NCBI GenBank assembly: GCA_947475165.1
Contig: CANJLD010000001.1
Coordinates: 62,001-126,000, forward strand
Length of the DNA: 64,000 nt
From: Bacteroidota bacterium
GTDB taxonomy: Bacteria > Bacteroidota > Bacteroidia > Chitinophagales > LD1
Direction: 5' to 3'
Shown here: in pieces, positions 3,069 to 26,042 of the stretch
Position numbering within the stretch: position 1 is the first letter of the stretch
How the letters are laid out: every line of letters begins with the position of its first letter
Program-made: the position numbers and the translations under genes
Notes under the pieces: model-generated
Seen by the model: the letters and a program-made list of their open reading frames with translations, nothing else
Told to the model about the DNA's origin: nothing
Database searches by the model: none

Positions 3069-6000
3069 TTATCGAATAATGGTCAGCGAGCCTTTCATAT
3101 CGTTGCGCGAATAACCATTGATGAATACAATTTTAGCGGTGTAGATGTAAACTCCTTGAGGTGCAGCCTCGCCCTTATAAGTACCATCCCAGGTAAACTT
3201 ATGGTTGCTGGTTTCAAATACCTTTTCGCCCCAGCGGTTGAAGATGGCAAACTCAAGGAACTGAATAGTGTTTACATCGCCAAACAGTTGGAACAAATCA
3301 TTGTTGCCGTCATTGTTCGGTGTAAATACATTCGGAATGAAAATATCGGTAACCGAATTTACATTTATACTCACCGTGTCTGACGCTTTGCATCCGTTCG
3401 CATCTACCACATTTACGGTATAGAAAGTATTGCTAAGCGGAGAGGCCTCGGTGCTTGCACAGTTACCGCAGCTAAGCGAGTAAGCAGGTGACCATGAGTA
3501 AACATTATTGTGTTCAACATTGGTAACCGCAGTAAGTTGAATGGTTTCGCCTAAGTTAATTGTAGAAGAAACACCGGCATCTACAGTCAATTCATAACCG
3601 GATATAATACTGTAGCTGCCCTGAACAGAACAGTTGCGTGAATCGGTAACGGTTACAGCATAAGTTCCCGGAGAAAGATTGTTTAAGTCTTCGGCAATAT
3701 CACCGGTGTTCCAGTCAAAATTGAAGGCAACAGTTCCTCCTGTAACAGTTAAATCAATAGCTCCGTTCTGCACCTCTGCACAGGCACTATTATGCACCAC
3801 CGGTGTAATTACAAGTGGCGCAGTAGTTCCAATAATATAACCGCCCGAAGCAATGCATCCGTTGATATCGGTAATGGTAATATCATAACTACCCTCAGCA
3901 ACGTTGGTAATGCTGGAAGCAGAAGCGTTGTTGCTCCAGTGATAGCTGAAAGGTGAATTTCCTCCGGTTACCTGTAATACCACACTGCCATCAGCATGAC
4001 CGGTACAACCCACCGGAGTAATAACCGATGCAATGTTTAATTGCTGCGGCTCGTTTACTACTATGTCTCCACTTGCGGCAGTGCATAAATGTGCATCTGT
4101 AATGGTTACCGTGTAATATCCTCTTTGCAGATTAGCAATGCTGGCCCCTTGCGCTGAATTGTTCCAGTAGAAAGTATATGCGGGAACACCACCGGTTACA
4201 GTAATATTAACAGAACCATCAGCCAAACCATAGCAAGTAACATTGTTAGCGGTTGCGCTAATTACTATTGGTGAAGGCTGAATGATATCTGCACTATCAA
4301 CTACGCTGCAATTATTAGCGTCAGTTATCAGCACACGGTAGTTAGCTGCTGTAAGGTTAGATAGCGATGCATTCATTCCGCCTGAATTCCAGTTATAATT
4401 ATAAGGAGCTGTTCCGCCTTGCACCTGCACACTAATAGCTCCGTTGTTGCCACCATAGCAAGTTACAGCAGTAGTTTGAATAGTTGTATTAATAGACGGC
4501 AACTGATTAATGGCGGCACCGGTACTCGCTACACATCCACGGGCATCGGTCACGGTAACTAAATAGTTTCCAGCTGAAAGATTCGCTACATCCTGTGTAA
4601 CATTGCCACCTGTCCAGCTATAGCTATAAGGGGCAGTTCCACCGGTTACAGTTAAGTTAACAGCCCCGGTAGCCGCGCCATTGCAGGTTACATCAGTTGC
4701 CACAGTGCTTAAAGAAATGAGTACCGGTTCTGAAATACTGACAGAATTTAAGGCTGTAGCGCATAGGTTGGCATCGGTTACAGTAACGCTGTATAAACCC
4801 GGAGCCAGTGAAGTAACATCCTGCGTAACAGCATTGTTGCTCCAGATATAGGTATAAGGAAAAGCCGCTCCGTTTACACTCAAATCAATACTGCCGTCAT
4901 TCGCTCCATTGCAATGTACGTTTTGGTGTGTTTCAAGAACTGCAATAGCCGATGGCTGCGTAATATTGAACGACAACATAGTAGCACAGTTAGTCGCATC
5001 GGTTAACGATAGCGAGTAATTACCTGCAGTTAAATTTGAAATACTTGGTGCTGTGCCGCTATTACTCCATACAAACTGATAGCTACCATTTCCACCGGTT
5101 GCGGTGGTAGTTATAGAGCCATTGCTTCCTCCAAAGCAGGTAACGTTGGTTTGAGTAAAGCTAACTGTAATAGGTGTTGGCTGTGTAATAGTAGCTGAAG
5201 TTGTTGCGATGCAGGCATTAGCATCGGTTACAATTACCGAATAAGTTCCGGCACTTACACCAGATAAATCCTGCGTAAGAATATTATTGTTCCACTGATA
5301 TAAATAGTTGGTGGTTCCACCGGTTACAGATAAATCAATAGTACCGGTAGCTGCGCCTGCGCAGGTTACATCTGTTTTAGTAGTAGTAAGTGTAAGCGCA
5401 GCTGGTTGTGTGATTGCTGAAGTCAAAGAAGTTGAACAAGCGTTTGCATCAGTTACCGTTACCACATAGCTTCCTGAAGTTAAACCTGTTCTATTCTGTG
5501 TAATAACAGAATTGCCCCAGTTAAACGAATAAGGAGACACACCACCCGAAGGTGTAGTATTAATAGTAGCATTGCTTCCACCATTGCATGAAACATTAGT
5601 ATGTGTTTCAGCAACCACAAGTATAGCAGGCTGACTAATAGCAACAGTTGCAGTAGCCGAACATGAGTTGTTATCGTTTACGGTTACAGTATAGTTTTGT
5701 GCAACAAGAACAGAAACATCCTGTGCGGTTGCACCGGTGCTCCAGTTATAAGTATAACCGGAAGTTCCACCGGTAACACTTAAATCAATGCTACCCGTAT
5801 TGCCACCGTTACACAATACATTTACATGCGTATTTGAAAGCACAATCTGAGTTGGCTGAGAAATAGTTGCCGTTGCCAATGCGGTGCAGTTAGCAGCATC
5901 TTTAACGGTTACATTGTAAGTATTCGCCACAATGTTTGAAATATCCTGAGTAGTTGCCAGGTTGCTCCAGTTGTAAGTATAAGAACCTACACCACCACCC

Positions 6001-9000
6001 ACTGTTAAATCAATACTGCCGTTGGCAGAACCAAAGCAAGTAGTATTTACAACAGAAGTAGAAGTAGTAATTTGTGTTCCTTGAGTAATAACGGTCGAAG
6101 TATTTGCGGTGCATAAATTAGCATCCGTTACACTCACCGAGTAGTTTCCTGCCGGAATACTGTTGTTGTTTTGCGTTGCCGGTCCATTGCTCCAGTTGAA
6201 AGTATAAGCACTTGTTCCACCGGTTACTGTCAAAGCAATGCTTCCGGTAGATGCACCATAACAAGTTACGTTGGTTGGTGTTGCGCTTAACGAAATAACT
6301 GCCGGCTCGGTAACACTTGCTGCTGTTGAAACAGTGCATGAGTTATTATCAGTTATTGTTACGTTATAGCTGCCAACCGGTAAGTTCGTTCTATTTTGAG
6401 TAATAACTCCTCCTCCCCAATTGTAAGCGTAAGGTGAAGTTCCTCCGCTTGTTACAATATTTATTGAACCATTGCTTCCACCATTGCAGGAGATATTAGT
6501 AACCACTGCTGATGCAATAAGTGCCGCAGGCTGAGTAACAGTTGAAAGTAAACTGCCCGAACATCCCGCATTATCAATAACCGTTACGGTATAATTTCCC
6601 GCAGCCAGTCCGGTTCTGTTTTGAGTTATAATTCCTCCGCCCCAATTATAATAATATGGAGTTGTTCCTCCGTTCGATGTTAGTGTAATAGTTCCGTTGC
6701 TTCCACCGTTACATGTTGCGTTAGTATTAACAGATGTAATACTAAGTGATGCGTTTTGCGCAACAGTTGAAGTGCTATTCCTAGTGCAACCCGCATTATC
6801 AGTTACAGTTACGCTGTAAGTTCCCTGTGCAAGACCGGTTCTGTTTTGCGTAACAACTCCACCACCCCAGTTAAAAGTATAAGGAGATGTTCCGCCACTT
6901 ACAGTAAGATTAATAGCACCGGTATTACCACCTGCACAAGCCACATCGGTCATAGCAGGAACAATTGAAATAACTGCGGGTTCAGTAATGGTAGTTGTGT
7001 TAGCGACTGTGCAGCCTACATTATCAGAAACAGTTATTGTATAAGCACCTGCCGCAAGACCGGTTCTGTTTGGTGTAATAATTCCACCGCCCCAGCTATA
7101 AGAATATGGCGTAGTTCCTCCGGTAACGGTTGTGTTTATTGCTCCTGTAGTTCCGCCAAAACAAACCACATTAGTTTGAGTAGAAGAAACACTAAGCGAA
7201 GTTGTTTGACTAATAGTAGCCGTGTGAGTAGTTGTACAAGTTGCGTTATCGGTTACGGTAACTGTATAGTTGCCCGAAGTAAGTCCTGTTCTGTTTTGTG
7301 TAATTACTCCACCGCCCCAGTTAAATGTATATGGAAATGCTCCTCCACTTACAGTTAAGTTTATAGAGCCGGTGCTTCCGCCATTACAAGCAACGTTAGT
7401 TGTAACGGAAGCAACTGAAATAGCACTTGCCTGATTTACAGTTGAAGTATTTGAAGCCGTGCACAATGCATTGTCAGTAACCGTTAAAGTATAAGAACCG
7501 GCAGTTAATGCTGTTCTGTTCTGCGAAACTACCCCCCCACCCCAGTTAAAAGAGTAAGGCGAAGCTCCTCCGCTTACACTGATATTTATTGCGCCATTAT
7601 TTCCGCCAAAACAAGTGGCGTTGATAACTGTTGGCGTAACAGTAATAGCTGAGCCTTGGGAAACTGTAGCAGAACTTGTCATCGAACAACCGGTGTTATC
7701 GGTTACGGTTACTATATAAGTTCCTGCCATCAATCCTGTTCTGTTTTGAGTTGTAATTCCACCGCCCCAGTTAAAAGTATAAGGCGAGTTGCCTCCGCTT
7801 ACACCCATATTAATAGCACCATTGCTTCCACCAAAACAACTTGCATTGGTTGCAGTAGGTGTAACAGTAATTGCTCCCGGCTGATTAACGGTTGAAGAAT
7901 TAATTGCCGAGCAACCTGCATTATCCGTAACTGTTACACTATAAGTTCCCTGCGCAAGACCGGCTCTGTTTTGAGTGATTACTCCACCGCCCCAATTGAA
8001 AGAGTAAGGAGAAGTTCCTCCGCTTACAGTAATATTTATTGCACCATTGTTTCCGCCATTGCACGAAACATTTGTAACTACAGCAGAAGCACTTAAAGTA
8101 GCAGGCTGTGTAATAGCTGTTGAGTAAGTGGCTGTGCAACTTGCGTTATCTGTAACAGTAACATTGTAAGTTGCTGCAGTAAGCGATGCGCGATTTTGTG
8201 TAATAATTCCACCGCCCCAGTTAAATGTATATGGAGAAGTTCCTCCGCTTACGCTTAAGTTAATAGCTCCGTTATTTCCTGCATTACAGGAAACATTTGT
8301 ATTTACAGAAGAAACCACAATGGCTGTTGGTTGAATAACAACCGATGTGTTGCTTGTTGAACATCCTGCATTATCAGTTACCGTAACCGTATAGCTTCCG
8401 GCTGCTAAGGCAGTTCTGTTTTGTGTAATTACTCCACCTCCCCAGTTATAAGCGTAAGGAGAAGTTCCGCCCGCAACAGTACTGTTTATAGAACCGGTGC
8501 TGATATTATTACAAGTAAGATTTACAACAGTTGGCGAAATAGTTATAGCTGCAGGCTGACTAACCGCAATACTTGCAGAAGCTGTGCATGAATGATTATC
8601 GGTTACAGATACCGGATAAGTTCCTTGTGCAAGTCCGGTTCTGTTTTGGGTGATAATTCCACCGCCCCAGTTGTAAGCATACGGAGCAAAACTTCCGGTT
8701 ACAGCTAAGTTGATGGCACCGGTGCTGGCTCCAAAGCAAGTAGCATTAGTAACCGTTGGTGTAATAAGTATAGGAGTAGGTTGATTTACAGTAATAGAAG
8801 TTGAAACTGTGCATGAGTTATTGTCTGTTACCGTTACACCATAATTTCCTGCACTAAGACCGGTTCTGTTTTGCGTAACAACACCACCGCCCCAGTTATA
8901 AGTGTAAGGAGCAACTCCGTTCGATACCGATAAATTGATAGCACCATTACTTCCACCATTACAGGTTACATCGGTAACGGTCGAGTTAATTGTAATAGCA

Positions 9001-10652
9001 AAGGCCGGTTGAGTAATAGTAACCGTTCTGGTTGCCGTGCAAGAATGATTATCGCTTACTGTTACTGTATAACTACCAGTAGCAAGTGAACTAATATTCT
9101 GTGTAGTTGGCGAATTGCTCCACACATAAGTGAATGGCGACCATCCGTTTGCCACACTTAAATCAACTGAACCTGTAGCGGCACCATAACATAAATTGTT
9201 TACCTGTGTGCTGGTAAGGTTCATAGGTGTATAAGCAGGAACGGTTGCGCACGCAGTAGTACTGCATCCGTTGGCATCGGTTACGGTAACACAGTAGTTA
9301 CCTGCATTTACGTTGTTCTGATTGGCACTGATTACACCTGCACCCCACCAATACGAATAGCTTCCCATTCCGCCCACAACCGTAGTGGTTACCGAACCGG
9401 TTGGGCCGCCAATACATGCTTGTGGTAAAGGAACTGCTGTTATGGTTAATTGCAATGGCTGAGGAACAAAAGTAGTTTGTGTAGCAGTACATCCTCTAAA
9501 GTCTGTTACGGTTACCGTATAGTTTCCGGTAGCTAAACCTGTTCTGTTTTGTGTAAATATTCCATCTCCCCAATTGTATGAGTAAGGAGAAGTTCCACCT
9601 GTTACAATTGTATTAATGGCTCCGTTATTACTTCCAAAACAGGTAAGCTGAATGGGGTTAAGTGTAATATTTAATTGTGTTGGGGAAGTTAAATTAACTG
9701 TAGCGGCTGCCGTGCAACCGGTGGTTGAAGTGGCTGTAACGGTATATGAACCCGCACCCATGCCGGTTCTGTTTTGTGTAGTAGGACCATCGCTCCAGCG
9801 GAAAGTATACGGACCAACACTGCCTATTACAGAAATAACCGTAGTAGTTCCGTTAGCACCGCCAAAACAACTTGGGTTTACTGAACTTGTATTCACCGCC
9901 ATACCTGCGCCAGACTGACCAACTGTTGCCGAAGCAGAAACACTGCAACCGGTTATATCGGTAACAGTTACTGTATATGTTCCGGCAGCAATGGCTGTGC
10001 GGTCTTCGGTAATTGCTCCATCGCACCACGAAAACAAGTAGGCCGGAAAACCAAATTGCACAGTCAAATCAATTGCTCCATTCACACCACTTCCGCAGGT
10101 TACATTGGTAATTGTTTTATTAATAACCATGCCAGGTGGCTGAGTTACGTTAGCTGAATCAACTTTTGTGCAGCCCTTTGAGTCGGTAATGGTTACATAG
10201 TAATTAGCCGCAGTAAGGTTGGCGCGGTCTTCGGTATAAACAAAATCGCTCCAGGCATAAGTATAACCTGGGCTTCCACCTAAAACAGTAAGGTCAATAG
10301 CACCGGTGTTTCCACCGCCACAATAAACATGCGTAATGCTTTTCAGCGTAGTCATGGGAGTTGGTTCCGAAATAAAAATGAGAATAGAATTGCTGGCACC
10401 TAAATTATCCGTAACGGTCAACCAATAATTTCCGGCTGATAGACCAGCTCGGTCTTCGGTAATAGTACCATCGCTCCAGTTATAAGTATATGGGGCAGTT
10501 CCGCCACCGGGTGTAATATCTACTGCACCGGTTGCAAAACCGTTGCAATTTACGTTGGTATGGGCTTCCAAAATAACAATCGCTGCTTGTGTTTCCCAAG
10601 GCACCATAAACAGCGAAAGCAATAGCAATACCCCGAGTAATTTTCTTTTCAT
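3069..10652 (-). CDS. giant SprB-repeat surface protein, T9SS type B (gliding-associated C-terminal domain)
   Basis: This is a 2527-residue secreted protein. A signal peptide (MKRKLLGVLLLLSLFMVPWETQA) precedes 31 SprB-type repeats of about 75-80 residues. Each repeat begins with a Cys-centred 'xTCxGxxxGxI' motif, continues with 'GGTSPYxYxW' and ends with 'GxYxVTVTDxxxC'. The central repeats (about numbers 8-19) share a near-identical 'NWGGGVITQNRTGL' core and are very similar at DNA level. The outer repeats carry 'WSNGxxTQ' variants, so the middle block looks recently expanded. After the repeats comes a short Ig-like segment ('YSWSPAYSLSCGNCAST'), then the CHU_C/T9SS type B domain ('FIPNVFTPNNDGNNDLF' to the end). 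SprB in Flavobacterium is a mobile adhesin used for gliding. Here an adhesive surface role is inferred, and motility is not shown. Confidence 0.93.
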   Translation of the reverse strand: MKRKLLGVLLLLSLFMVPWETQAAIVILEAHTNVNCNGFATGAVDITPGGGTAPYTYNWSDGTITEDRAGLSAGNYWLTVTDNLGASNSILIFISEPTPMTTLKSITHVYCGGGNTGAIDLTVLGGSPGYTYAWSDFVYTEDRANLTAANYYVTITDSKGCTKVDSANVTQPPGMVINKTITNVTCGSGVNGAIDLTVQFGFPAYLFSWCDGAITEDRTAIAAGTYTVTVTDITGCSVSASATVGQSGAGMAVNTSSVNPSCFGGANGTTTVISVIGSVGPYTFRWSDGPTTQNRTGMGAGSYTVTATSTTGCTAAATVNLTSPTQLNITLNPIQLTCFGSNNGAINTIVTGGTSPYSYNWGDGIFTQNRTGLATGNYTVTVTDFRGCTATQTTFVPQPLQLTITAVPLPQACIGGPTGSVTTTVVGGMGSYSYWWGAGVISANQNNVNAGNYCVTVTDANGCSTTACATVPAYTPMNLTSTQVNNLCYGAATGSVDLSVANGWSPFTYVWSNSPTTQNISSLATGSYTVTVSDNHSCTATRTVTITQPAFAITINSTVTDVTCNGGSNGAINLSVSNGVAPYTYNWGGGVVTQNRTGLSAGNYGVTVTDNNSCTVSTSITVNQPTPILITPTVTNATCFGASTGAINLAVTGSFAPYAYNWGGGIITQNRTGLAQGTYPVSVTDNHSCTASASIAVSQPAAITISPTVVNLTCNNISTGSINSTVAGGTSPYAYNWGGGVITQNRTALAAGSYTVTVTDNAGCSTSNTSVVIQPTAIVVSSVNTNVSCNAGNNGAINLSVSGGTSPYTFNWGGGIITQNRASLTAATYNVTVTDNASCTATYSTAITQPATLSASAVVTNVSCNGGNNGAINITVSGGTSPYSFNWGGGVITQNRAGLAQGTYSVTVTDNAGCSAINSSTVNQPGAITVTPTATNASCFGGSNGAINMGVSGGNSPYTFNWGGGITTQNRTGLMAGTYIVTVTDNTGCSMTSSATVSQGSAITVTPTVINATCFGGNNGAINISVSGGASPYSFNWGGGVVSQNRTALTAGSYTLTVTDNALCTASNTSTVNQASAISVASVTTNVACNGGSTGSINLTVSGGAFPYTFNWGGGVITQNRTGLTSGNYTVTVTDNATCTTTHTATISQTTSLSVSSTQTNVVCFGGTTGAINTTVTGGTTPYSYSWGGGIITPNRTGLAAGAYTITVSDNVGCTVANTTTITEPAVISIVPAMTDVACAGGNTGAINLTVSGGTSPYTFNWGGGVVTQNRTGLAQGTYSVTVTDNAGCTRNSTSTVAQNASLSITSVNTNATCNGGSNGTITLTSNGGTTPYYYNWGGGIITQNRTGLAAGNYTVTVIDNAGCSGSLLSTVTQPAALIASAVVTNISCNGGSNGSINIVTSGGTSPYAYNWGGGVITQNRTNLPVGSYNVTITDNNSCTVSTAASVTEPAVISLSATPTNVTCYGASTGSIALTVTGGTSAYTFNWSNGPATQNNNSIPAGNYSVSVTDANLCTANTSTVITQGTQITTSTSVVNTTCFGSANGSIDLTVGGGVGSYTYNWSNLATTQDISNIVANTYNVTVKDAANCTALATATISQPTQIVLSNTHVNVLCNGGNTGSIDLSVTGGTSGYTYNWSTGATAQDVSVLVAQNYTVTVNDNNSCSATATVAISQPAILVVAETHTNVSCNGGSNATINTTPSGGVSPYSFNWGNSVITQNRTGLTSGSYVVTVTDANACSTSLTSAITQPAALTLTTTKTDVTCAGAATGTIDLSVTGGTTNYLYQWNNNILTQDLSGVSAGTYSVIVTDANACIATTSATITQPTPITVSFTQTNVTCFGGSNGSITTTATGGNGSYQFVWSNSGTAPSISNLTAGNYSLSLTDATNCATMLSFNITQPSAIAVLETHQNVHCNGANDGSIDLSVNGAAFPYTYIWSNNAVTQDVTSLAPGLYSVTVTDANLCATALNSVSISEPVLISLSTVATDVTCNGAATGAVNLTVTGGTAPYSYSWTGGNVTQDVANLSAGNYLVTVTDARGCVASTGAAINQLPSINTTIQTTAVTCYGGNNGAISVQVQGGTAPYNYNWNSGGMNASLSNLTAANYRVLITDANNCSVVDSADIIQPSPIVISATANNVTCYGLADGSVNITVTGGVPAYTFYWNNSAQGASIANLQRGYYTVTITDAHLCTAASGDIVVNEPQQLNIASVITPVGCTGHADGSVVLQVTGGNSPFSYHWSNNASASSITNVAEGSYDITITDINGCIASGGYIIGTTAPLVITPVVHNSACAEVQNGAIDLTVTGGTVAFNFDWNTGDIAEDLNNLSPGTYAVTVTDSRNCSVQGSYSIISGYELTVDAGVSSTINLGETIQLTAVTNVEHNNVYSWSPAYSLSCGNCASTEASPLSNTFYTVNVVDANGCKASDTVSINVNSVTDIFIPNVFTPNNDGNNDLFQLFGDVNTIQFLEFAIFNRWGEKVFETSNHKFTWDGTYKGEAAPQGVYIYTAKIVFINGYSRNDMKGSLTIIR

Positions 10653-16882: not shown

Positions 16883-17350
16883 ATGTCAAAAATTCAATCT
16901 TTTCTTGACGAATATGGTTCGAGCCATCAAAACGCCACTAACAAACTCATTCACTGGATTTGTGTACCGGCAATTTTTTTCAGCATAGTAGGTTTGTTCT
17001 ATATTGTTGAATTACCTTTTGCTATTACTCCAACTATGAACTTTAATTTAGCAATTATTATGCTGGCACTGGTTACGGTTTATTATTTCACCCTTTCGCG
17101 CACGCTTTGGATTGGCATGTTGCTCTTCTCGGTTATCTGCATGATTGTTTGTTACGAAATAAAAGCGGCTGATATTCTTCCGTTATGGGCAGTATCTATT
17201 ATCATTTTTGTTGCAGCATGGATAGCGCAGTTCTACGGTCATCATATTGAAGGAAAGAAACCATCGTTCTTAAAAGATGTGCAGTTTCTGCTCATAGGAC
17301 CCGCATGGATTATGAGTTTTATTTACAAGAAATTAGGAATAGGACTTTAA
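16883..17350 (+). CDS. Mpo1-like / DUF962 membrane protein
   Basis: This is a small membrane protein of 155 residues. The family pattern is clear: an N-terminal 'FLDEYGSSHQNATNKLIHWICVP' block with conserved Tyr, His and Asn, and a C-terminal 'AQFYGHHIEGKKPSFLKDVQFLLIGPAW' block. Four to five hydrophobic segments lie between and around them. Yeast Mpo1 is an Fe-dependent dioxygenase that shortens 2-hydroxy fatty acids by alpha-oxidation, and the conserved His residues seen here are the presumed metal ligands. The bacterial role is unproven. The gene lies between the TonB receptor and the DUF1571 gene, all on the plus strand. A link with the nearby fatty acid hydroxylase (a possible source of 2-hydroxy acids) is speculation. 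Confidence 0.85.
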   Translation: MSKIQSFLDEYGSSHQNATNKLIHWICVPAIFFSIVGLFYIVELPFAITPTMNFNLAIIMLALVTVYYFTLSRTLWIGMLLFSVICMIVCYEIKAADILPLWAVSIIIFVAAWIAQFYGHHIEGKKPSFLKDVQFLLIGPAWIMSFIYKKLGIGL

Positions 17351-17398: not shown

Positions 17399-18268
17399 AT
17401 GAAAAATAGCGTTCTTCTTCTCACAGTAATCATCATGGCTGCCTGTTTTAATTTTTCAGCAGCACCGGCACCCGAAAGCCAAACCCGCACTATCGTAAAC
17501 AAAATGCTGGCAGCAATTAATGCACACAAAGGAAGCACCTTTAACATGCGCAGCGAGGAAAGAATTATCGGCATTAAAGGATTACGCGGAGGTTTGATTC
17601 AAAACAAAATCAATGTTTCTCCTAAGAAATTGTATTTAAAAATGATTGAAGACCCGAATAAGGGAACAGAAATACTGTATGTAGAGGGACAGAACGGTGG
17701 CAAAGCAGTAGTGAACCCCGGCAAGTTTTTGCCTACACTTAAATTGAATCCGTTCAGTAGTTTGCTTACCAAAGACCAGCACCATACTATGCTGTCGTCA
17801 GGTTTTACCATTGTGGGTAAAATTGTAGAGCAAGGAGTAAAGAAGGCAGATGCACAGGGAAAATTTGACGAAGTATTTAAATATGCAGGAGATGTAACCT
17901 GGAATAACCGCGCTTGCTATAAATTAGTAATCGAAGACCCTACTTACGCCTATACCAATTACACCGCCAAGAAAGGCGAGAACATGTATAACATTGCTTT
18001 GAAATTTTTGGTACCTGAATACTCTATGGTAGAAACAAGCGGTATTAAAAACTTCGAAGAAGATTTAGGCGGAAAGACCGTAAAAATTCCAACTTCTTAT
18101 TCAAAGAAAACCGTGATGTATATTGATAAAGAAAACAACTTCCCTATTTTTCAGGAAGTGAGTGACGATAAAGGAATTTTTGAACGCTACTCTTTCTACA
18201 ATCTGGTAGTAAATCCGGCTTTTAAAGCCGATGAGTTTACCGAAGATTTCTCGGATTATAATTTCTAA
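17399..18268 (+). CDS. DUF1571 secreted protein with a LysM-like insert
   Basis: This is an exported protein of 289 residues with a signal peptide (MKNSVLLLTVIIMAACFNFSAAPA). The block 'MRSEERIIGIKGLRG' through 'KKLYLKMIEDPNKGTEILYVEGQNGGKAVVNPG' is typical of DUF1571. Members of this family are thought to have an outer-membrane lipoprotein-carrier (LolA/LolB-like) fold. Within the second half, about residues 180-225, the stretch 'YTAKKGENMYNIALKFLVPEYSMVE' reads like a LysM motif. The gene ends 75 bp before the ketosynthase operon on the same strand and could be part of its transcript. LolA-like carriers do accompany many aryl polyene/flexirubin clusters, which makes this link attractive but unproven. 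Confidence 0.8.
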   Translation: MKNSVLLLTVIIMAACFNFSAAPAPESQTRTIVNKMLAAINAHKGSTFNMRSEERIIGIKGLRGGLIQNKINVSPKKLYLKMIEDPNKGTEILYVEGQNGGKAVVNPGKFLPTLKLNPFSSLLTKDQHHTMLSSGFTIVGKIVEQGVKKADAQGKFDEVFKYAGDVTWNNRACYKLVIEDPTYAYTNYTAKKGENMYNIALKFLVPEYSMVETSGIKNFEEDLGGKTVKIPTSYSKKTVMYIDKENNFPIFQEVSDDKGIFERYSFYNLVVNPAFKADEFTEDFSDYNF

Positions 18269-18343: not shown

Positions 18344-19564
18344 ATGAACCGGGTGGTTATAACAGGTATTGGAATTTGGTCGTGCATTGGCAAAAACACC
18401 GATGAAGTGCGCGATTCGCTATTTAAGGGAAAGTCAGGAATTATCCTTGACCCTGCGCGTAAAGAATTTGGCTACCGGTCGGGCTTAACCGGTGTGTGCG
18501 AAAAGCCGGAGCTTAAAAGTTTGTTAGACAGGCGTTCGCGGGTTATGCTTTCCGAACCCGGTGAGTATGCATACATGGCAACACTGCAAGCTTTGCAACA
18601 GGCTAAAATAGATCAGGACTTTCTCGACCATCACGAAACAGGAATTATTTATGGTAACGACAGTACGGCACAGGCGGTAGTAGAATCTACCGATATAATG
18701 CGCGAGAAAAAGAATACGCAATTTGCCGGTAGCGGTGCGGTGTTCCAAACCATGAACAGCACGGTGAACATGAACCTGGCTACTATCTTCAAGTTTAAAG
18801 GAATCAACTTTACCGTTAGCGCGGCTTGTGCCAGCGGTTCGCATTCTATCGGGCTTGGTTATTTTCTCATTCGCCACGGTTATCAGGATAGAGTAGTTTG
18901 CGGAGGCGCGCAGGAGTTGAATATTTTTTCGATGGGAACTTTTGATGCGCTGGCAGCTTTCTCTACCTGCGAAGACGATCCAACCAAAGCATCGCGCCCT
19001 TTCGATAAAAGCAGAGACGGGTTAATTCCAAGTGGAGGAGCAGCAACGGTAATTATAGAATCGCTGGAAAGTGCGCAGAAGCGCGGAGCAACAATTTTGG
19101 CTGAGGTAGTTGGCTACGGATTTTCTTCTAACGGAGGACATATTTCAAACCCTACAGTTGACGGACCGGTGCGTTCGTTGATGATGAGTTTGAAAGATGC
19201 GAATGTAAACCCTAATGAAATTGATTACATCAATGCTCATGCTACATCAACTCCGCAAGGCGATGCTAGCGAGGCGCAGGCAATTGGAGCGGTGTTTGGT
19301 GCGTATCAGCCCTTGGTTAGTTCAACAAAATCAATGACCGGTCACGAATGCTGGATGGCCGGAGCCAGCGAAATAGTTTATTCGCTACTGATGATGCAGA
19401 ATAGTTTTATAGCTCCCAACATCAATTTCGAAAACCCGGATGAGCATTCTGCTAAGCTGAATATTGCAACCGTTACTAAAGAGAAGAATATTGATGCATT
19501 TTTGTCCAACTCTTTCGGCTTTGGCGGAACGAATTCGACATTGATAGTAAGAAAATGGAAATAG
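18344..19564 (+). CDS. beta-ketoacyl-ACP synthase (FabF-type), first of the operon
   Basis: This is a condensing enzyme that extends an acyl chain by decarboxylative Claisen reaction on an acyl carrier protein. At 406 residues it has normal length for KAS I/II. The catalytic triad is complete: Cys162 in SAACASGS, His299 in NAHATSTPQGD and His334 in STKSMTGHECW. The residues after His334 (ECWMAGASE) depart from the usual LLGAAGA of FabF, which suggests a specialised enzyme rather than housekeeping fatty acid synthesis. It opens a run of seven genes with gaps of 24, 3, 0, -4, -4 and 11 bp, so they almost certainly form one operon. Such KS/ACP/acyltransferase/hotdog/KS sets are typical of aryl polyene and flexirubin pathways. 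Confidence 0.9.
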   Translation: MNRVVITGIGIWSCIGKNTDEVRDSLFKGKSGIILDPARKEFGYRSGLTGVCEKPELKSLLDRRSRVMLSEPGEYAYMATLQALQQAKIDQDFLDHHETGIIYGNDSTAQAVVESTDIMREKKNTQFAGSGAVFQTMNSTVNMNLATIFKFKGINFTVSAACASGSHSIGLGYFLIRHGYQDRVVCGGAQELNIFSMGTFDALAAFSTCEDDPTKASRPFDKSRDGLIPSGGAATVIIESLESAQKRGATILAEVVGYGFSSNGGHISNPTVDGPVRSLMMSLKDANVNPNEIDYINAHATSTPQGDASEAQAIGAVFGAYQPLVSSTKSMTGHECWMAGASEIVYSLLMMQNSFIAPNINFENPDEHSAKLNIATVTKEKNIDAFLSNSFGFGGTNSTLIVRKWK

Positions 19565-19588
19565 AGAGCAATTAACTCAACCCCGATT

Positions 19589-19840
19589 ATGACAAACGAA
19601 GAAATAATTTCAAAAATCAACGAGTTCCTGACTGAGGAATTTGAAGTAGATGGAACAACCATTACACCGGATGCTTCATTAAAGGAAACGCTGGAGCTTG
19701 ACTCTCTTGATTATGTTGACCTGGTAGTAATCATAGAAGGTAATTTTGGTATTAAAGTAAAACAGGAAGATTTCACGGGTATCCTCACTTTTCAAAATCT
19801 ATACGATTACGTTATCAGCAAATCGCAGCCACAGGCTTAA
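19589..19840 (+). CDS. acyl carrier protein
   Basis: This is an 83-residue carrier that holds the growing acyl chain on a phosphopantetheine arm. The attachment serine is Ser39 in 'LELDSLDYVDLV', the classic DSL motif, with the acidic helix II after it. The calculated character is acidic, as expected. It starts 24 bp after the ketosynthase and ends 3 bp before the acyltransferase, and is probably dedicated to this operon. A separate housekeeping ACP is expected elsewhere in the genome. Confidence 0.93.
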   Translation: MTNEEIISKINEFLTEEFEVDGTTITPDASLKETLELDSLDYVDLVVIIEGNFGIKVKQEDFTGILTFQNLYDYVISKSQPQA

Positions 19841-19843
19841 ATA

Positions 19844-20719
19844 ATGGCAGAGTGGAAGGGAAAATCGCGAGGGAATAAAATCGGTTACGCCATTTTCATT
19901 TTTATTTTCAAAAACTTCGGAGTTCGTCCTGCTTATTTCATTCTGTATTTTGTTGCGCTCTATTACTTCCTTTTTTCTACCGAAACATCAAGGCATATCT
20001 ACCACTACTTTAATCAACGTATCGGTTACAGTAAAGTCAAGTCGTTTTTTAGAATTTATATCAGCTACTACCGGTTAGGGCAGATGCTGATTGATAAGAC
20101 CATGATTATGTCGGGCATGAAGGACCAGTTTACTTCCGAATCTTTTGGCGCAGATAACATGAGAAATATAGTAGCGCAGAAGAAGGGCGGAATTTTACTT
20201 GGCGCACATCTCGGTAATTGGGAAATTGCCGGGCACTACCTAATGGGCTATGGCGATACTATCAACATTCTGGTTTACGACTGCGAACACGAAGCCATCA
20301 AAAATTACATGGATGAAGTAACCGGTGGAAGAAAATTCAAACTCATTCCCATCAAAGACGATCTTTCGCATATTTATGAAATTGGTGAAGCGTTAGAGCG
20401 CAATGAAATAATTGCCACCACAGCCGACCGGTTTTTAGGCGAAGGCAAAACGCGTAGCTTTAAATTTTTAGGAGAAGAGGCACGCTTTCCACTGGGTATT
20501 TTTCAAATCATCAAAACTTTCAGGGCTAATTATTCGTTTGTATACGGGGTTAAGCGCAGCGCTACGCATTATAATTTTTATTGCCGCCCGCACCGCACCA
20601 TTACCAACGAAACTACGCTGGATGTGATTATGGAAGATTATGTTCGCGACCTTGAAGGAATGGTGAAGGAGAATCCGGAGCAGTGGTTTAATTATTACGA
20701 TTTTTGGAAAAAGGCATAA
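19844..20719 (+). CDS. LpxL/HtrB-family lysophospholipid acyltransferase
   Basis: This is a membrane-associated acyltransferase of 291 residues that would transfer an acyl group from ACP onto a lipid or alcohol acceptor. A hydrophobic N-terminal segment is at about residues 15-45. The catalytic HX4E motif is H122-E127 in GAHLGNWE, followed by the family's 'TADRFLGEGKTRSFKFLGE' acceptor-site region. In aryl polyene/flexirubin clusters this kind of protein is thought to attach the finished polyene chain to its lipid partner, and the same role is inferred here. It lies between the ACP (3 bp) and the hotdog gene (0 bp), so co-expression is near certain. Confidence 0.88.
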   Translation: MAEWKGKSRGNKIGYAIFIFIFKNFGVRPAYFILYFVALYYFLFSTETSRHIYHYFNQRIGYSKVKSFFRIYISYYRLGQMLIDKTMIMSGMKDQFTSESFGADNMRNIVAQKKGGILLGAHLGNWEIAGHYLMGYGDTINILVYDCEHEAIKNYMDEVTGGRKFKLIPIKDDLSHIYEIGEALERNEIIATTADRFLGEGKTRSFKFLGEEARFPLGIFQIIKTFRANYSFVYGVKRSATHYNFYCRPHRTITNETTLDVIMEDYVRDLEGMVKENPEQWFNYYDFWKKA

Positions 20720-21169
20720 ATGAAATTACCTATCACCGGACAACGCCTTATTGACTTGATACCACAGAAGCCACCTTTTGTTTTAATCAGTTCGTTGCTG
20801 CAAGTGAGCGATACTCGTTCTGTTACCAAGTTTACTTTTAATGAAAGTCATGTGCTTTGCAACTCGGGTAAACTAACTGTTGCAGGAATGATGGAGAACA
20901 TTGCCCAAACCGCTGCCGCAAAAATGGGTTATGAATGTAATTTGCTCGGCAAGAAAATTCCAGTAGGCTTTATTGGCGATGTGCGCGATTTTTCATTCAC
21001 TAAATTGCCGGTTGTGGGACAAGAAATAGAAACAGAAATAATTATTACCAACCAAATTTTTGATGTAAGTATCATCACCGGTTCAATAAAATTAAACGGT
21101 GAAGAAATTGCGCATTGCAAAATGAAAATATTTGTAGAGCCGGAGGATAAAACAGCAAAAGCCGTATGA
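20720..21169 (+). CDS. hotdog-fold 3-hydroxyacyl-ACP dehydratase-like protein
   Basis: This is a 149-residue single-hotdog protein resembling FabZ and the ApeI/ApeP dehydratases of aryl polyene clusters. The start 'LIPQKPPFVLISSLLQ' corresponds to the FabZ 'LPHRYPFLLVD' strand. The Glu of the central helix is visible in 'GMMENIAQTAA'. The usual GHFPxxPxxPG loop with its catalytic His is replaced by 'ESHVLCNSGKLTVAG', so dehydratase activity is likely but the active site is divergent. It follows the acyltransferase without a gap and overlaps the thioesterase by 4 bp (ATGA), implying translational coupling. Confidence 0.78.
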   Translation: MKLPITGQRLIDLIPQKPPFVLISSLLQVSDTRSVTKFTFNESHVLCNSGKLTVAGMMENIAQTAAAKMGYECNLLGKKIPVGFIGDVRDFSFTKLPVVGQEIETEIIITNQIFDVSIITGSIKLNGEEIAHCKMKIFVEPEDKTAKAV

Positions 21170-21603
21170 GCAACGCACACGCATCATCGTTAACAGCAGT
21201 TGCACGATTTGAAGTTCGCTTTAATGAGTGCGACCCCTTGGGTATTGTGTGGCACGGTAACTACGTCAACTATTTTCAGGAAGGAAGAGAAGCCTTTGGT
21301 AAAAAGTATAACCTCAACTACATGCAAATGTATCACCAGGGTTTTGCTACACCCATTGTGCATTTGAATACAGATTTTAAGCGCACGCTTCAGTATAAAG
21401 ATATTGCCTTGGTAGAAACTACTATGCGCAATACACCGGCTGCAAAAATTATTTTCGATTATGTTATTCGCAACGAAAGCACCGGTGAAGTAGTTTGCAA
21501 AGGAACCACCATACAGGTTTTTGTTACCGGCAAACAAATGGAGTTGTCATTAGTCATTCCATCGGTTTACGCGGAATGGAAAAAACAAAACGGATTGCCA
21601 TGA
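21166..21603 (+). CDS. YbgC/4-hydroxybenzoyl-CoA thioesterase-type hotdog protein
   Basis: This is a 145-residue acyl-thioesterase candidate. The diagnostic motif 'FNECDPLGIVWHGNYVNYFQ' (residues 19-38) carries the catalytic Asp (about D23) and the HGNY signature of the 4-hydroxybenzoyl-CoA thioesterase group. Within the operon it may release an acyl chain from the ACP or edit stalled intermediates. Both ends overlap its neighbours by 4 bp (ATGA junctions at 21166 and 21600), so translation of three genes appears coupled. Confidence 0.87.
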   Translation: MSNAHASSLTAVARFEVRFNECDPLGIVWHGNYVNYFQEGREAFGKKYNLNYMQMYHQGFATPIVHLNTDFKRTLQYKDIALVETTMRNTPAAKIIFDYVIRNESTGEVVCKGTTIQVFVTGKQMELSLVIPSVYAEWKKQNGLP

Positions 21604-22718
21604 GCCCGGTATACATAGCAGCAGATAATATTTTTTCGCCACTTGGAAACTCTACCAAAGAGAATTTCGAAAAGGTGAAGAATGGCTTATCTGCTATCCG
21701 GCAAATCTCTGACCCTTCGCTTTCTCCTGAACCTTTTTATACTTCAATTTTTGAACGAGTAATTTCCGTGAAAGGCTTTACAAGATTCGAAAGTATCTGC
21801 ATCGCTTCTATACAAGATGCTTTATCGCAAACAGAAATCAAATTTTCTTCGCACGATACTCTCTTTATTCTTTCTACTACCAAAGGGAATATAGAATTGA
21901 TAGAAGGTAAAGAGGTAACCGAAGAAATACGCAGCCATGTTTCGCTTTTTAATACAGCTAAATTTATTGCTGAATATTTCAACTCGCCCAATAATCCACT
22001 CGTTGTTTCTAATGCCTGCATCTCCGGTGTTCTTTCGGTTATAATAGCAAAGCGTTTGTTAGAATCGGGTAAATACAAACATGTAGTCATCACCGGTGCC
22101 GATGTTCTTTCGCGCTTTGTCATCAGCGGATTTCAATCGTTGAATGCCATGAGCAAAAATCCTTGTAGACCATTTGATAAAAACAGAGATGGAATAAATC
22201 TTGGTGAATGTGCAGCAACTATTATTCTGACTACCGAAAAAACTCTTTCGAAAGGTGTTTTGATAAACGGAGGCGCGAGCAGTAATGATGCGAACCATAT
22301 CTCCGGTCCTTCACGCACTGGTCTGGAATTATCTTTTGCTGTAACGAAAGCCATGAAAGAAAGTAAAGTAAGTGCCGATGATTTATCTTTTATCTCTGCA
22401 CACGGCACTGCTACTTTGTTCAACGATGAAATGGAATCGAAGGCATTTGCCGGTGCATCGCTTTCAGAAATTCCGTTACACAGTTTGAAAGGAAATTTTG
22501 GACACACTCTTGGCGCAGCCGGTGTATTAGAATCTGTTTTGACATATCGCTCGTTACTCGAAGGAATTATTCTGCCAAGTAAAAATTTTGAAAGCATTGG
22601 CGTTTCAGAAAATGTAAATGTAAATCAATCGCTTTTAAAAAGCAGTAAAACACATGCGTTAAAGACCGCCTCAGGCTTTGGTGGTTGCAATGCATCGCTC
22701 ATATATTCGCTCATGTAA
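21600..22718 (+). CDS. second beta-ketoacyl-ACP synthase of the operon
   Basis: This is a 372-residue condensing enzyme. The start at the ATGA overlap (21600) was preferred to the ATG at 21495, which lies deep inside the thioesterase gene. The triad is complete: Cys140 (SNACISGV), His268 (SAHGTATLF) and His302 (GNFGHTLGAAGV). It is more divergent than the first ketosynthase, and its N-terminus is shorter. Paired ketosynthases are a hallmark of aryl polyene clusters, where one pair forms a KS/chain-length-factor-like dimer. Here both copies keep Cys and His, so both could be catalytic. Confidence 0.88.
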   Translation: MSPVYIAADNIFSPLGNSTKENFEKVKNGLSAIRQISDPSLSPEPFYTSIFERVISVKGFTRFESICIASIQDALSQTEIKFSSHDTLFILSTTKGNIELIEGKEVTEEIRSHVSLFNTAKFIAEYFNSPNNPLVVSNACISGVLSVIIAKRLLESGKYKHVVITGADVLSRFVISGFQSLNAMSKNPCRPFDKNRDGINLGECAATIILTTEKTLSKGVLINGGASSNDANHISGPSRTGLELSFAVTKAMKESKVSADDLSFISAHGTATLFNDEMESKAFAGASLSEIPLHSLKGNFGHTLGAAGVLESVLTYRSLLEGIILPSKNFESIGVSENVNVNQSLLKSSKTHALKTASGFGGCNASLIYSLM

Positions 22719-22729
22719 TTTTTTAGGAA

Positions 22730-24001
22730 ATGAAAACAGAACAGGTTGACGTATTAGTGATCGGTGCAGGTCCATCAGGAACGGTAGCAGCATCTATCAT
22801 CAACAAAGCGGGGTTCAAGGTTAAGATTGTAGAGAAAGAAAACTTTCCCCGCTTTGTTATAGGTGAAAGTTTATTACCGCGTTGTATGGAAGCTTTGGAT
22901 GATGCGGGCTTTCTGCCTGTTTTAAAAGCTCAAGGGTATCAGGAAAAATATGGCGCCAAGTTTACGCATGGTTCTGATGGCATAATGGATTTTAATTTTA
23001 GCGACCAGTTTACAAAAGGTTGGAGTTGGACATGGCAGGTGCCGCGAGCTCACTTTGATAATGTATTAGCAACTGAGGTGCAACGAATGGGCGTAGAAAT
23101 TAATTTTGAAACTACTGTTACAGCTATTGAGTTTAATGGAACTGATTCAACTACTACAGTAGTGGACAAAGATGGAGGAGAGAAAAAAATTGAAGCCCGT
23201 TTTATTGTAGACGGCTCCGGCTATGGTCGTGTTATTCCGCGTTTGTTTAAACTTGATAAACCATCCAATCTTCCACCTCGTAAAACTTTGTTCACACACA
23301 TTCGCGATACGCGCAGAAACGATTACGTTGAGCCAAACCGTATTCTCATTGTTGATCACAAACCGGGTGTATGGGCTTGGTGCATTCCCTTTTCGAGCGG
23401 AATTACCAGTTGTGGCTTTGTAAGTGATCCTGGTTTCTTTGATGCCTTTCCCGGTGAACCGGAAAAACAATTGCGCGATATCATTGCAAGCGATTGGAGC
23501 ATTGCTCCACGTTTTAAAGATTGCGAATTTTTATTCGAACCACGCGTGTTGCAGGCATGGTCGGTAAGTACCGATAAATTTTTTGGTGATGGTTTTGTGC
23601 TTACCGGTAACGTAACAGAGTTTCTTGATCCGGTATTTTCCTCGGGTGTTACATTGGCAACAACTTCTTCTCAAATTGCAAGTAAATTAGTAGTGCGTCA
23701 GTTAAATGGTGAAACAGTTAACTGGCAAAAGGAATACACCGATGTTATGATGCAGGGAGTAGATACTTTTCGATCGTATGTAATGGGATGGTATGATGGC
23801 ACTTTGCAGAAAATATTTTTTGCTGAAGAAAGAAATCAAGAGCTTATTCGCCAAATCTGTTCAGTCCTTGCTGGCTATGTTTGGGATACCGACAACCCAT
23901 ATGTGAAAAATCACAGCACTTATCTTAAGCGTATGGTAAGACTCATAAACGTGGGTAAAAAATTGAAAGATTTAGAGAAAACCGAAGGAGATAACAATTG
24001 A
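22730..24001 (+). CDS. FAD-dependent oxidoreductase with flavin-halogenase motifs
   Basis: This is a 423-residue flavoprotein. The N-terminal dinucleotide-binding motif is IGAGPSG (11-17), followed by 'PRFVIGESLLP' (40-50), typical of the tryptophan-halogenase/geranylgeranyl-reductase group. Two halogenase features are present. Lys74 in 'EKYGAKF' lines up with the catalytic Lys of PrnA-type halogenases. The WxWxIP motif is W215-A-W217-C-I-P220. It starts 11 bp after the second ketosynthase and closes the operon. Chlorination or hydroxylation of an aryl head group is a reasonable inference, because some flexirubins are known to be chlorinated. An alternative is an oxidoreductase that desaturates the chain, since similar motifs occur in non-halogenating relatives. 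Confidence 0.8.
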   Translation: MKTEQVDVLVIGAGPSGTVAASIINKAGFKVKIVEKENFPRFVIGESLLPRCMEALDDAGFLPVLKAQGYQEKYGAKFTHGSDGIMDFNFSDQFTKGWSWTWQVPRAHFDNVLATEVQRMGVEINFETTVTAIEFNGTDSTTTVVDKDGGEKKIEARFIVDGSGYGRVIPRLFKLDKPSNLPPRKTLFTHIRDTRRNDYVEPNRILIVDHKPGVWAWCIPFSSGITSCGFVSDPGFFDAFPGEPEKQLRDIIASDWSIAPRFKDCEFLFEPRVLQAWSVSTDKFFGDGFVLTGNVTEFLDPVFSSGVTLATTSSQIASKLVVRQLNGETVNWQKEYTDVMMQGVDTFRSYVMGWYDGTLQKIFFAEERNQELIRQICSVLAGYVWDTDNPYVKNHSTYLKRMVRLINVGKKLKDLEKTEGDNN

Positions 24002-24067: not shown

Positions 24068-24100
24068 AAAAGGGTTCCGCAAGATTTGCGGAACCCTTTT
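24068..24100. terminator. bidirectional terminator between the ketosynthase operon and tRNA-Val
   Basis: A perfect 15-bp stem (AAAAGGGTTCCGCAA / TTGCGGAACCCTTTT, loop GAT) is flanked by A-rich and T-rich runs. It can end the plus-strand operon and the minus-strand tRNA. The same stem recurs at 30021-30052. Confidence 0.8.
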
Positions 24101-25037: not shown

Positions 25038-26042
25038 ATGGCTGAGAATCATTTAAAGTGGTATAACAAAACATTGCATCACTATCTTAGTAACGATGAG
25101 ATTAAGTTCATTATGCAAAAGAGCGACTGGAAAGCAGCCTTCGAAATTTTTCATACTTGGGCATGGATTGCTTTTGCTTTCGCAATAGTTGGTTTTTTTC
25201 CAAACCCGTTTACGGTTATTGTTTCGCTTTTTATTCTTGGCGGTAAGCAACTTGCCTGCGCTATCATTCTGCACGATTGTTCGCATGAGTCTATGTTTAC
25301 TTCGCGTAAGGTGAACCGGCTTGTGGGCAACTGGTTTGGGGCATATCCTATTCTGCACGATGTAGATAAATACCGTCCTTACCATTTGCAGCATCACATC
25401 AACACTGGTTTAGATGACGATCCGGATGTTCCGCTTACTACCGGTTACCCTACTTCGCGAGTCAGTATGCTGCGTAAATTCCTTCGCGATTTGTTTGGCC
25501 CTACGGGTTTTAAAGGAAATGTAGCTGTTCTATTAATGCAATTAGGCGTTTTAAAATATGCGCTAAACGGCAAAGCAGAATGGATTTCGTTGAATGGAAG
25601 GAATGCAGTTGAGGTGTTTACATCTGCTGTAAAAAATCTTGCCGGACCGGTGGCGGCTAATTTTATTTTGTTTCTTATTTTTTGTGCTTTCGGACAGCCG
25701 TGGTTGTATTTGCTTTGGATTGGAGCACTACTTACAACCAACAACTTCAGTTTACGTGTGCGTAGTATCGCAGAGCACAGCATGGTTGAAGACCGGACCA
25801 ATCCGCAAAAGAATACGCGTACTACTTATGCTAATTTCCTCGAGCGCATTTTATTTGCCCCACACCATGTAAACTACCATGCCGAACATCATTTGTGTAT
25901 GGGTGCGCCTTCTTATAACCTTCCAGCCATGCACAAACTTCTTCTGGCAAAAGGTTTCTACACCGAAGGAACAATGGAAAAAAATTACATCAATATTGTA
26001 AAGCGCGCCATTGTCAACAACGAGCCTAACTTAGGGGTATAA
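25038..26042 (+). CDS. membrane fatty acid desaturase
   Basis: This is a 334-residue integral membrane di-iron desaturase. The three His boxes are HDCSH (79-83), HLQHH (116-120) and HAEHH (281-285), with a further 'AEHS' near residue 246. Hydrophobic segments lie at about 38-75 and 205-235. It would introduce a double bond into an acyl chain or a related lipid; the position is not predictable. It lies 1 kb downstream of the ketosynthase operon but behind a terminator, so it is transcribed separately. Confidence 0.9.
   Translation: MAENHLKWYNKTLHHYLSNDEIKFIMQKSDWKAAFEIFHTWAWIAFAFAIVGFFPNPFTVIVSLFILGGKQLACAIILHDCSHESMFTSRKVNRLVGNWFGAYPILHDVDKYRPYHLQHHINTGLDDDPDVPLTTGYPTSRVSMLRKFLRDLFGPTGFKGNVAVLLMQLGVLKYALNGKAEWISLNGRNAVEVFTSAVKNLAGPVAANFILFLIFCAFGQPWLYLLWIGALLTTNNFSLRVRSIAEHSMVEDRTNPQKNTRTTYANFLERILFAPHHVNYHAEHHLCMGAPSYNLPAMHKLLLAKGFYTEGTMEKNYINIVKRAIVNNEPNLGV

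Follow-up and report, generated by a model that had tools for sequence, protein, structure and literature searches.

Does a compact operon that resembles a pigment cluster, and lacks several of its steps, encode a reduced pathway of its own, or is it one part of a pathway encoded elsewhere in the same genome? The question is raised by seven genes on the + strand at 18344-24001 of the window, by which we mean the whole 64-kb stretch of Bacteroidota DNA that was analysed. The first-pass annotation of the window had likened these genes to the clusters for aryl polyenes (APE) and for flexirubins, the yellow-orange pigments of Bacteroidota, and had allowed for both answers. We conclude that the operon is very probably the section from about flxC to flxJ of a flexirubin pathway that is complete, with its genes dispersed. 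The apparent oddity is thereby removed, in that a seemingly stripped-down pigment pathway becomes one module of a complete one.

The operon and the other loci of the genome

The seven open reading frames (ORFs) were recovered in the order annotated before, and the recomputed intergenic gaps of 24, 3, 0, -4, -4 and 11 bp agreed with those given earlier. The genes, and a hairpin beyond them, are listed below with the evidence for each assignment.

18344..19564, + strand: KS1, FabB/ApeR-type beta-ketoacyl synthase (ketosynthase, KS), FlxC-like (Pfam/NCBIfam, BLAST, tree, triad)
19589..19840, + strand: acyl carrier protein (ACP), DSL at residues 38-40 (PF00550)
19844..20719, + strand: LpxL-type acyltransferase, HX4E present as HLGNWE at residue 122 (PF03279)
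20720..21169, + strand: putative ApeP-type hotdog dehydratase subunit, ExxAQ kept, FabZ His absent (alignments, family profile)
21166..21603, + strand: 4HBT-fold acyl thioesterase, ApeK-like (PF13279)
21600..22718, + strand: KS2, ApeO-type beta-ketoacyl synthase, FlxI-like, triad intact (best PDB match 6qsp_A, tree)
22730..24001, + strand: FAD enzyme of the tryptophan-halogenase superfamily, with GAGPSG, KYGA and WTWQVP (PF04820, PDB 3nix)
24068..24100, no strand given (the scan assigns the - strand): 15-pair hairpin, possible terminator (terminator scan)

In the mechanical ORF list, KS2 begins with a TTG at 21495; the ATG at 21600, which overlaps the TGA of the preceding gene, is the plausible start. 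The 3' end of the operon is less sure. The hairpin lies 67 bp past the last gene, but the scan calls it a terminator of the - strand. The counts of terminator-like sites (8, shuffled expectation 8.0) and promoter-like sites (19, shuffled 18.4) are uninformative.

The first-pass annotation had found no adenylating ligase, ketoreductase, glycosyltransferase, MMPL exporter, DarA or DarB in the operon and had suggested that these steps might be encoded elsewhere. The whole assembly was searched (45 contigs, 99.7% complete, 2.2% contamination), and all six were found in it, at the following loci, where CLF stands for chain-length factor.

C1:176561-182714: 205-aa protein, ACP, KS, CLF-like KS, polysaccharide deacetylase, LolA, dehydratase, glycosyltransferase
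C29:11269-15250: ammonia-lyase, ketoreductase, CrtI-like enzyme
C20:13220-23569: 1237-aa MMPL protein, 547-aa ORF, C45/AAT-type protein, AcpS, AMP-type ligase
C25:34328-42595: two ABC genes, BtrH/DUF4872 protein, 135-aa protein and type III ketosynthase (KSIII) on one strand; DarA-like protein, 558-aa FAD enzyme and DUF1702 protein on the other
C25:10313-13311: ACP, KS, CLF-like KS, dehydratase

Four of the assignments exceed the curated cut-offs of NCBI's flexirubin-specific family models: the tyrosine ammonia-lyase FlxA at C29:11269-12804 (NF053541, 783 bits against a cut-off of 700), the ketoreductase FlxB on C29 (NF053542, 368 against 340), the 4-coumarate-CoA ligase FlxY at C20:22295-23569 (NF053551, 642 against 520) and DarB on C25 (NF053539, 607 against 550). 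DarA, also on C25, passed no family model; it shares 46% identity over 300 aa with the gene that precedes darB in Flavobacterium. The ketosynthases, ACPs, dehydratases, thioesterase, LolA, glycosyltransferase and exporter of the published set are all present in the genome. The flexirubin genes thus occupy six places, the operon and five others, on four contigs, rather than one or two clusters. The nearest other pathway genes found on the operon's contig are about 90 kb away.

One protein of 1237 aa, encoded at C20:13220-16933, carries PlsC-type acyltransferase and methyltransferase domains in addition to the MMPL exporter, and its Flavobacterium match has 1226 aa (35% identity). Behind darA on C25 (10034-12595 of locus L188) lie a second halogenase-type FAD enzyme of 558 aa and the DUF1702 protein; this FAD enzyme adjoins darA in one relative (G009) as well.

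Two trivial accounts of this layout were rejected. A break in the assembly as the cause of the scatter was discarded, as each of the six loci is flanked on either side by 10.3 kb of contig or more. The other was a redundant second cluster, which the first-pass annotation had named as a finding that would refute it. The other loci complement the operon, and in the own-genome search, for which KS1, KS2 and the FAD enzyme were the queries, the next matches by score reached 33% identity (a FabF-like gene on C9), 32% and 28%, respectively, so that all three are single-copy. A paralogue of the operon's dehydratase (51% identical) came from reading the C25:10-13 kb block.

Co-inheritance and layout among relatives

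Sixty genomes including its own were searched, and counts are over the 59 others; given shared ancestry and several incomplete genomes, p values are only a guide. The orthologue thresholds (KS1 68%, FAD enzyme 50%, FlxA 57% with contig-edge pieces counted, FlxY 49%, DarB 48%, DarA 37%) were chosen after seeing the gap in each match list. Of the 59 relatives, 22 carry a KS1 orthologue at this threshold. FlxY was found in 21 of these 22 and in none of the 37 others (p 4e-15), and within family f1 alone in 19/20 as compared to 0/9. The same pattern was seen for FlxA and for the FAD enzyme (each in 20/22 and 1/37), for DarA (19/22 and 1/37) and for DarB (17/22 and 0/37). Among the KS1-bearing relatives, the FAD enzyme was not found in G015 and G028, nor FlxA in G025 and G042.

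In a relative of the same genus, G011, the operon and the flx genes, the dar genes excepted, form a contiguous run of approximately 24 kb on one strand (C210:1577-25693). The run begins with FlxY, AcpS, a C45/AAT protein, a CrtI-like piece beside a run of N, MMPL, glycosyltransferase and dehydratase, continues with a 241-aa ORF, LolA, deacetylase, CLF, KS, ACP and the 205-aa protein, and ends with the operon, read as FAD enzyme, KS2, thioesterase, dehydratase, acyltransferase, ACP and KS1, followed by FlxB and FlxA. In G006, FlxA, FlxB, the operon and the block from the 205-aa protein to the dehydratase are all on one contig; its operon ACP is not listed, being either displaced by a longer opposite ORF in the filter or absent. 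FlxA, FlxB and a CrtI-like gene precede KS1 in G004 and G016, and in G017 the block of 205-aa protein, ACP, KS and CLF lies beyond the FAD gene with one 918-aa ORF between. The operon itself is split in G018 and G047, where KS1-ACP-acyltransferase, thioesterase-KS2 and the FAD enzyme are at separate places. We therefore do not regard clustering as defining for the flexirubin pathway, as relatives range from one run (G011) to a scattered set (G018, G047). Closely related genomes provide a natural gradation, with a single 24-kb run at one end and six scattered modules at the other, and cluster-based mining can misread such genomes, since no single locus looks complete.

The closest published systems are those of Flavobacterium johnsoniae UW101 and Chitinophaga pinensis, which have the same kinds of genes. 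In C. pinensis the genes are described as flxA-flxY with separate darA/darB, that is, at two places as compared to six places on four contigs here. In F. johnsoniae, mutation of darB in the 37-kb cluster abolished flexirubin, and in a spontaneous mutant the pigment was regained with a plasmid that carried a portion of this cluster. The published letters include the ketosynthases FlxC, I, L, N and O, the dehydratases FlxF and S, the deacetylase-to-exporter genes FlxP-U and the ligase FlxY (all PMC3992019). The order of the operon fits FlxC (KS), FlxF (dehydratase) and FlxI (KS), and judged by this order the operon would be about flxC to flxJ.

In Flavobacterium sp. SLB02 (G061), matches to the operon and to most other pathway genes lie in one stretch of 37.5 kb (5156197-5193701), similar in size to the F. 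johnsoniae cluster as reported in PMC3992019. For the operon genes the identities were 48% (FAD enzyme), 65% (KS1), 61% (ACP), 44% (acyltransferase), 47% (thioesterase) and 41% (KS2). The KS1-ACP-acyltransferase run recurs in Flavobacterium, which places it far beyond chance. The remaining matches were FlxA 55%, FlxB 52%, FlxY 57%, DarB 50%, 135-aa protein 50%, BtrH 53%, the ABC proteins 46% and 33%, 205-aa protein 40%, ACP 51%, KS 51%, CLF 40%, deacetylase 41%, LolA 33%, small dehydratase 37%, glycosyltransferase 47% and MMPL 35%, with the CrtI-like genes at 23-26% over parts; DarA is matched in the stretch as well. The match to the FAD enzyme adjoins the tyrosine ammonia-lyase gene.

The operon also resembles the APE cluster of E. 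coli CFT073, at 23-38% identity: KS1 pairs with ApeR (35% by BLAST), KS2 with ApeO, the acyltransferase with ApeJ (23%), the thioesterase with ApeK (30%), the ACP with ApeF (38%, its best APE match) and the dehydratase with ApeP by alignment only. The likeness to APE and flexirubin clusters noted in the first-pass annotation is borne out. In the E. coli system a single cluster includes the ligase and the ketoreductase and has no dar genes; here, by contrast, the starter would be tyrosine-derived, judged from the presence of FlxA and FlxY, and dar genes are present.

The pathway itself is known; only the dispersal and the lack of dar genes in two relatives are surprising, and mildly so. In a survey across the phylum, the flexirubin group comprises 268 clusters from five or more families (PMC9248904). 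Aryl polyene clusters, as well as aryl polyene-resorcinol ones, are listed in a survey of Flavobacteriaceae (PMC7440613), and for Dyadobacter both dar and flx groups have been described (PMC9606717). LolA2/LolB2 lie in flexirubin-type loci (PMC11885536). Among the titles listed in our flexirubin searches of open-licence papers, none concerned a scattered layout of the genes.

Enzymes of the operon and a proposed route

Alignment to E. coli FabB (C163/H298/K328/H333) confirmed the full Cys-His-His triads noted earlier, with C, H, K and H aligned in both KS1 and KS2. All four residues are kept in 15/15 KS1-type and 15/15 KS2-type rows (the window and 14 others each). For this count and for the tree, 31 loci were supplied and ORFs of at most 330 aa or at most 80% query cover were removed first; the tree had 69 rows, with E. 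coli ApeC, ApeO and ApeR as one sequence each, flagged as long branches. The KS1 clade includes two Flavobacterium sequences (support 100/100). It joins E. coli FabB first (100/94) and ApeR next (100/94), separate from the FabF pair; with a single FabB row, a position beside FabB proper is indistinguishable from one inside it. The NCBIfam scores of KS1 are below both cut-offs (FabB 401 of 630, FabF 338.3 of 493.75). By its sequence, KS1 is of the FabB kind, like ApeR, which has been termed FabB-like (PMC8358021). The KS2 clade (100/100) is joined (98/88) by ApeO and by those KSs that are partners in CLF pairs. KS2 is thus ApeO-like, without an adjoining CLF gene. Ketosynthases within ordinary FabF/FabB clades, a second finding that was said in advance to count against the first-pass annotation, were therefore seen in part: KS1 stands closer to E. 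coli FabB than ApeR does, and KS2 is of the ApeO type. Gene context and co-inheritance outweigh the placement of KS1.

The hotdog protein has no Pfam match and a weak NCBIfam match to FabZ (9e-5), and its family profile matches FabZ structures and 6qsr_B. Since BLAST gave no match to E. coli ApeP at 1e-3, the likeness to ApeP is one of alignment only. Its ExxAQ residues E59, A62 and Q63 are invariant in 14/14 sequences, and none of the 16 window-type rows has a His at the FabZ place, although one (L061) carries a His two residues off. In the larger alignment the Glu column is out of register for these rows, and the Glu was taken from the other alignments. The GHFP His is present in the small dehydratase at C1:181 kb and in its relatives, with Gln in place of Glu (6/6 rows). 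In the alignment, E. coli ApeI has His and Asp, and ApeP has Glu and no His. FabZ active sites are built from two subunits. For aryl polyene synthesis, a heterodimer of the ApeI/ApeP type with a single active site is stated in PMC8041823. The operon thus appears to supply half of one active site, with the other half approximately 98 kb away. With a subunit that lacks the catalytic His, and the His-bearing subunit at that distance, the operon probably cannot act alone.

The FAD enzyme matched PDB 3nix over its full length (585 bits, about 411 residues), an entry that is presumably from Cytophaga hutchinsonii and whose name (flavoprotein/dehydrogenase) gives no specific function; the other matches were FADH2-dependent halogenases. 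Typical motifs of such halogenases are GxGxxG, the Lys of the KxGA region and WxWxxP, and the enzyme has GAGPSG, KYGA and WTWQVP at these places. Known flexirubins vary in their chlorination (PMC3992019), which together with the halogenase-type matches makes ring chlorination the likeliest candidate for its role. The LpxL-type acyltransferase is a candidate for joining the polyene to its partner alcohol. FlxW was proposed for that step (PMC3992019).

The observed gene content, orthology, co-inheritance and residues suggest the following route. FlxA would make 4-coumarate from tyrosine and FlxY would activate it. KS1 may extend the starter in early rounds, by analogy with ApeR in aryl polyene synthesis, and the KS-CLF pair at C1:177-179 kb may finish the polyene. 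FlxB would reduce each keto group, and the operon's dehydratase subunit would form one active site with the His-bearing subunit at C1:181 kb. The thioesterase and acyltransferase are expected to release or transfer the polyene, and the flavoenzyme to modify the ring, probably by chlorination. DarA and DarB would make a dialkylresorcinol, which would then be esterified, and LolA and the MMPL protein may carry the pigment to the outer membrane. The predicted product is an aryl-polyene carboxylic acid esterified to a dialkylresorcinol.

Alternative readings and neighbouring genes

Several observations weigh against a flexirubin pathway as described above. DarB has no match at 48% or more in five of the 22 KS1-bearing relatives (G006, G011, G026, G028 and G042). 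DarA is also missing in G006 (99% complete), G011 (95%) and G028 (77%), and present in G026 and G042, so that the operon is not always paired with a dialkylresorcinol. G025 (95% complete) has the operon and darA/darB with no FlxY match and an ammonia-lyase of only 34%; the FlxY and ammonia-lyase genes adjoin in G020, and one deletion or assembly gap could explain this loss. G029 (73% complete) has the FAD enzyme, FlxA and part of DarA without KS1. In the SLB02 stretch, the two window-type dehydratases are only 23-31% identical, AcpS, the 558-aa FAD enzyme and the DUF1702 protein have no match, and there is one KS-CLF pair and no second block as in this genome. No operon protein reaches the curated cut-off of a flexirubin-specific NCBIfam model, for the FAD enzyme among its best 25 of 66 families, and the flx letters are based on the gene order published in text rather than on C. 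pinensis or UW101 sequences.

The absence of dar genes bears on an alternative that we consider improbable, namely that the operon contributes to an aryl polyene without a linked dialkylresorcinol, an APE-like lipid, and that the dar genes are used separately. G006 and G011 keep the flx set with no darA or darB orthologue found, and the acyltransferase matches E. coli ApeJ, the proposed enzyme for attaching the aryl polyene to its lipid anchor (PMC8253772). However, this genome has both darA and darB, which accompany KS1 in 19 and 17 of the 22 relatives, respectively, and in Flavobacterium a single gene separates the acyltransferase from darA-darB, which come after it. For G006 and G011 themselves, the contiguous flx run suggests an aryl polyene without a dialkylresorcinol. 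We tentatively raise the possibility that the flexirubin set of this family is kept by selection on function and not by linkage, as six co-inherited modules here and, in these two relatives, a sister pair of the same genus, as a contiguous aryl polyene half with the dialkylresorcinol half gone. If so, a resorcinol-free aryl polyene lipid is predicted in a lineage of the Bacteroidota. The two relatives represent the most testable oddity.

A stand-alone reduced pathway, which would make a different lipid or pigment from the operon only and which the first-pass annotation had offered as its second option, is very improbable. The compactness of the operon and the long interval to the next pathway genes found on that contig agree with it, but the operon has no ketoreductase, starter enzyme or complete dehydratase site, whereas each absent step is encoded in the same genome, with the ketoreductase and starter genes co-inherited and contiguous with the operon in G011 and G006. 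That these are housekeeping genes for fatty acid synthesis can practically be dismissed: KS1 reaches 401 bits with the FabB model and has FabB as its first neighbour in the tree, but the model's cut-off is higher, a separate FabF-like gene is present on C9 and 37 of the 59 relatives, some of them incomplete assemblies, lack a KS1 orthologue at the threshold used.

With the operon read as one section of a dispersed flexirubin pathway, its neighbours in the window remain to be described. An Mpo1-like gene (16883-17350) and a DUF1571 gene (17399-18268) lie directly upstream of KS1. Among the annotated loci of relatives they adjoin KS1 only in G001, and they are thus probably not part of the pathway core. 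Downstream, at 25038-26042, there is a gene of the fatty acid desaturase family, with the arginine hydroxylase model of guanitoxin synthesis as its best NCBIfam match (107.6 bits against a cut-off of 380). A repetitive protein of 2527 aa is encoded on the - strand at 3069-10652, and its end resembles, by eye, a C-terminal tail of the gliding/T9SS type.

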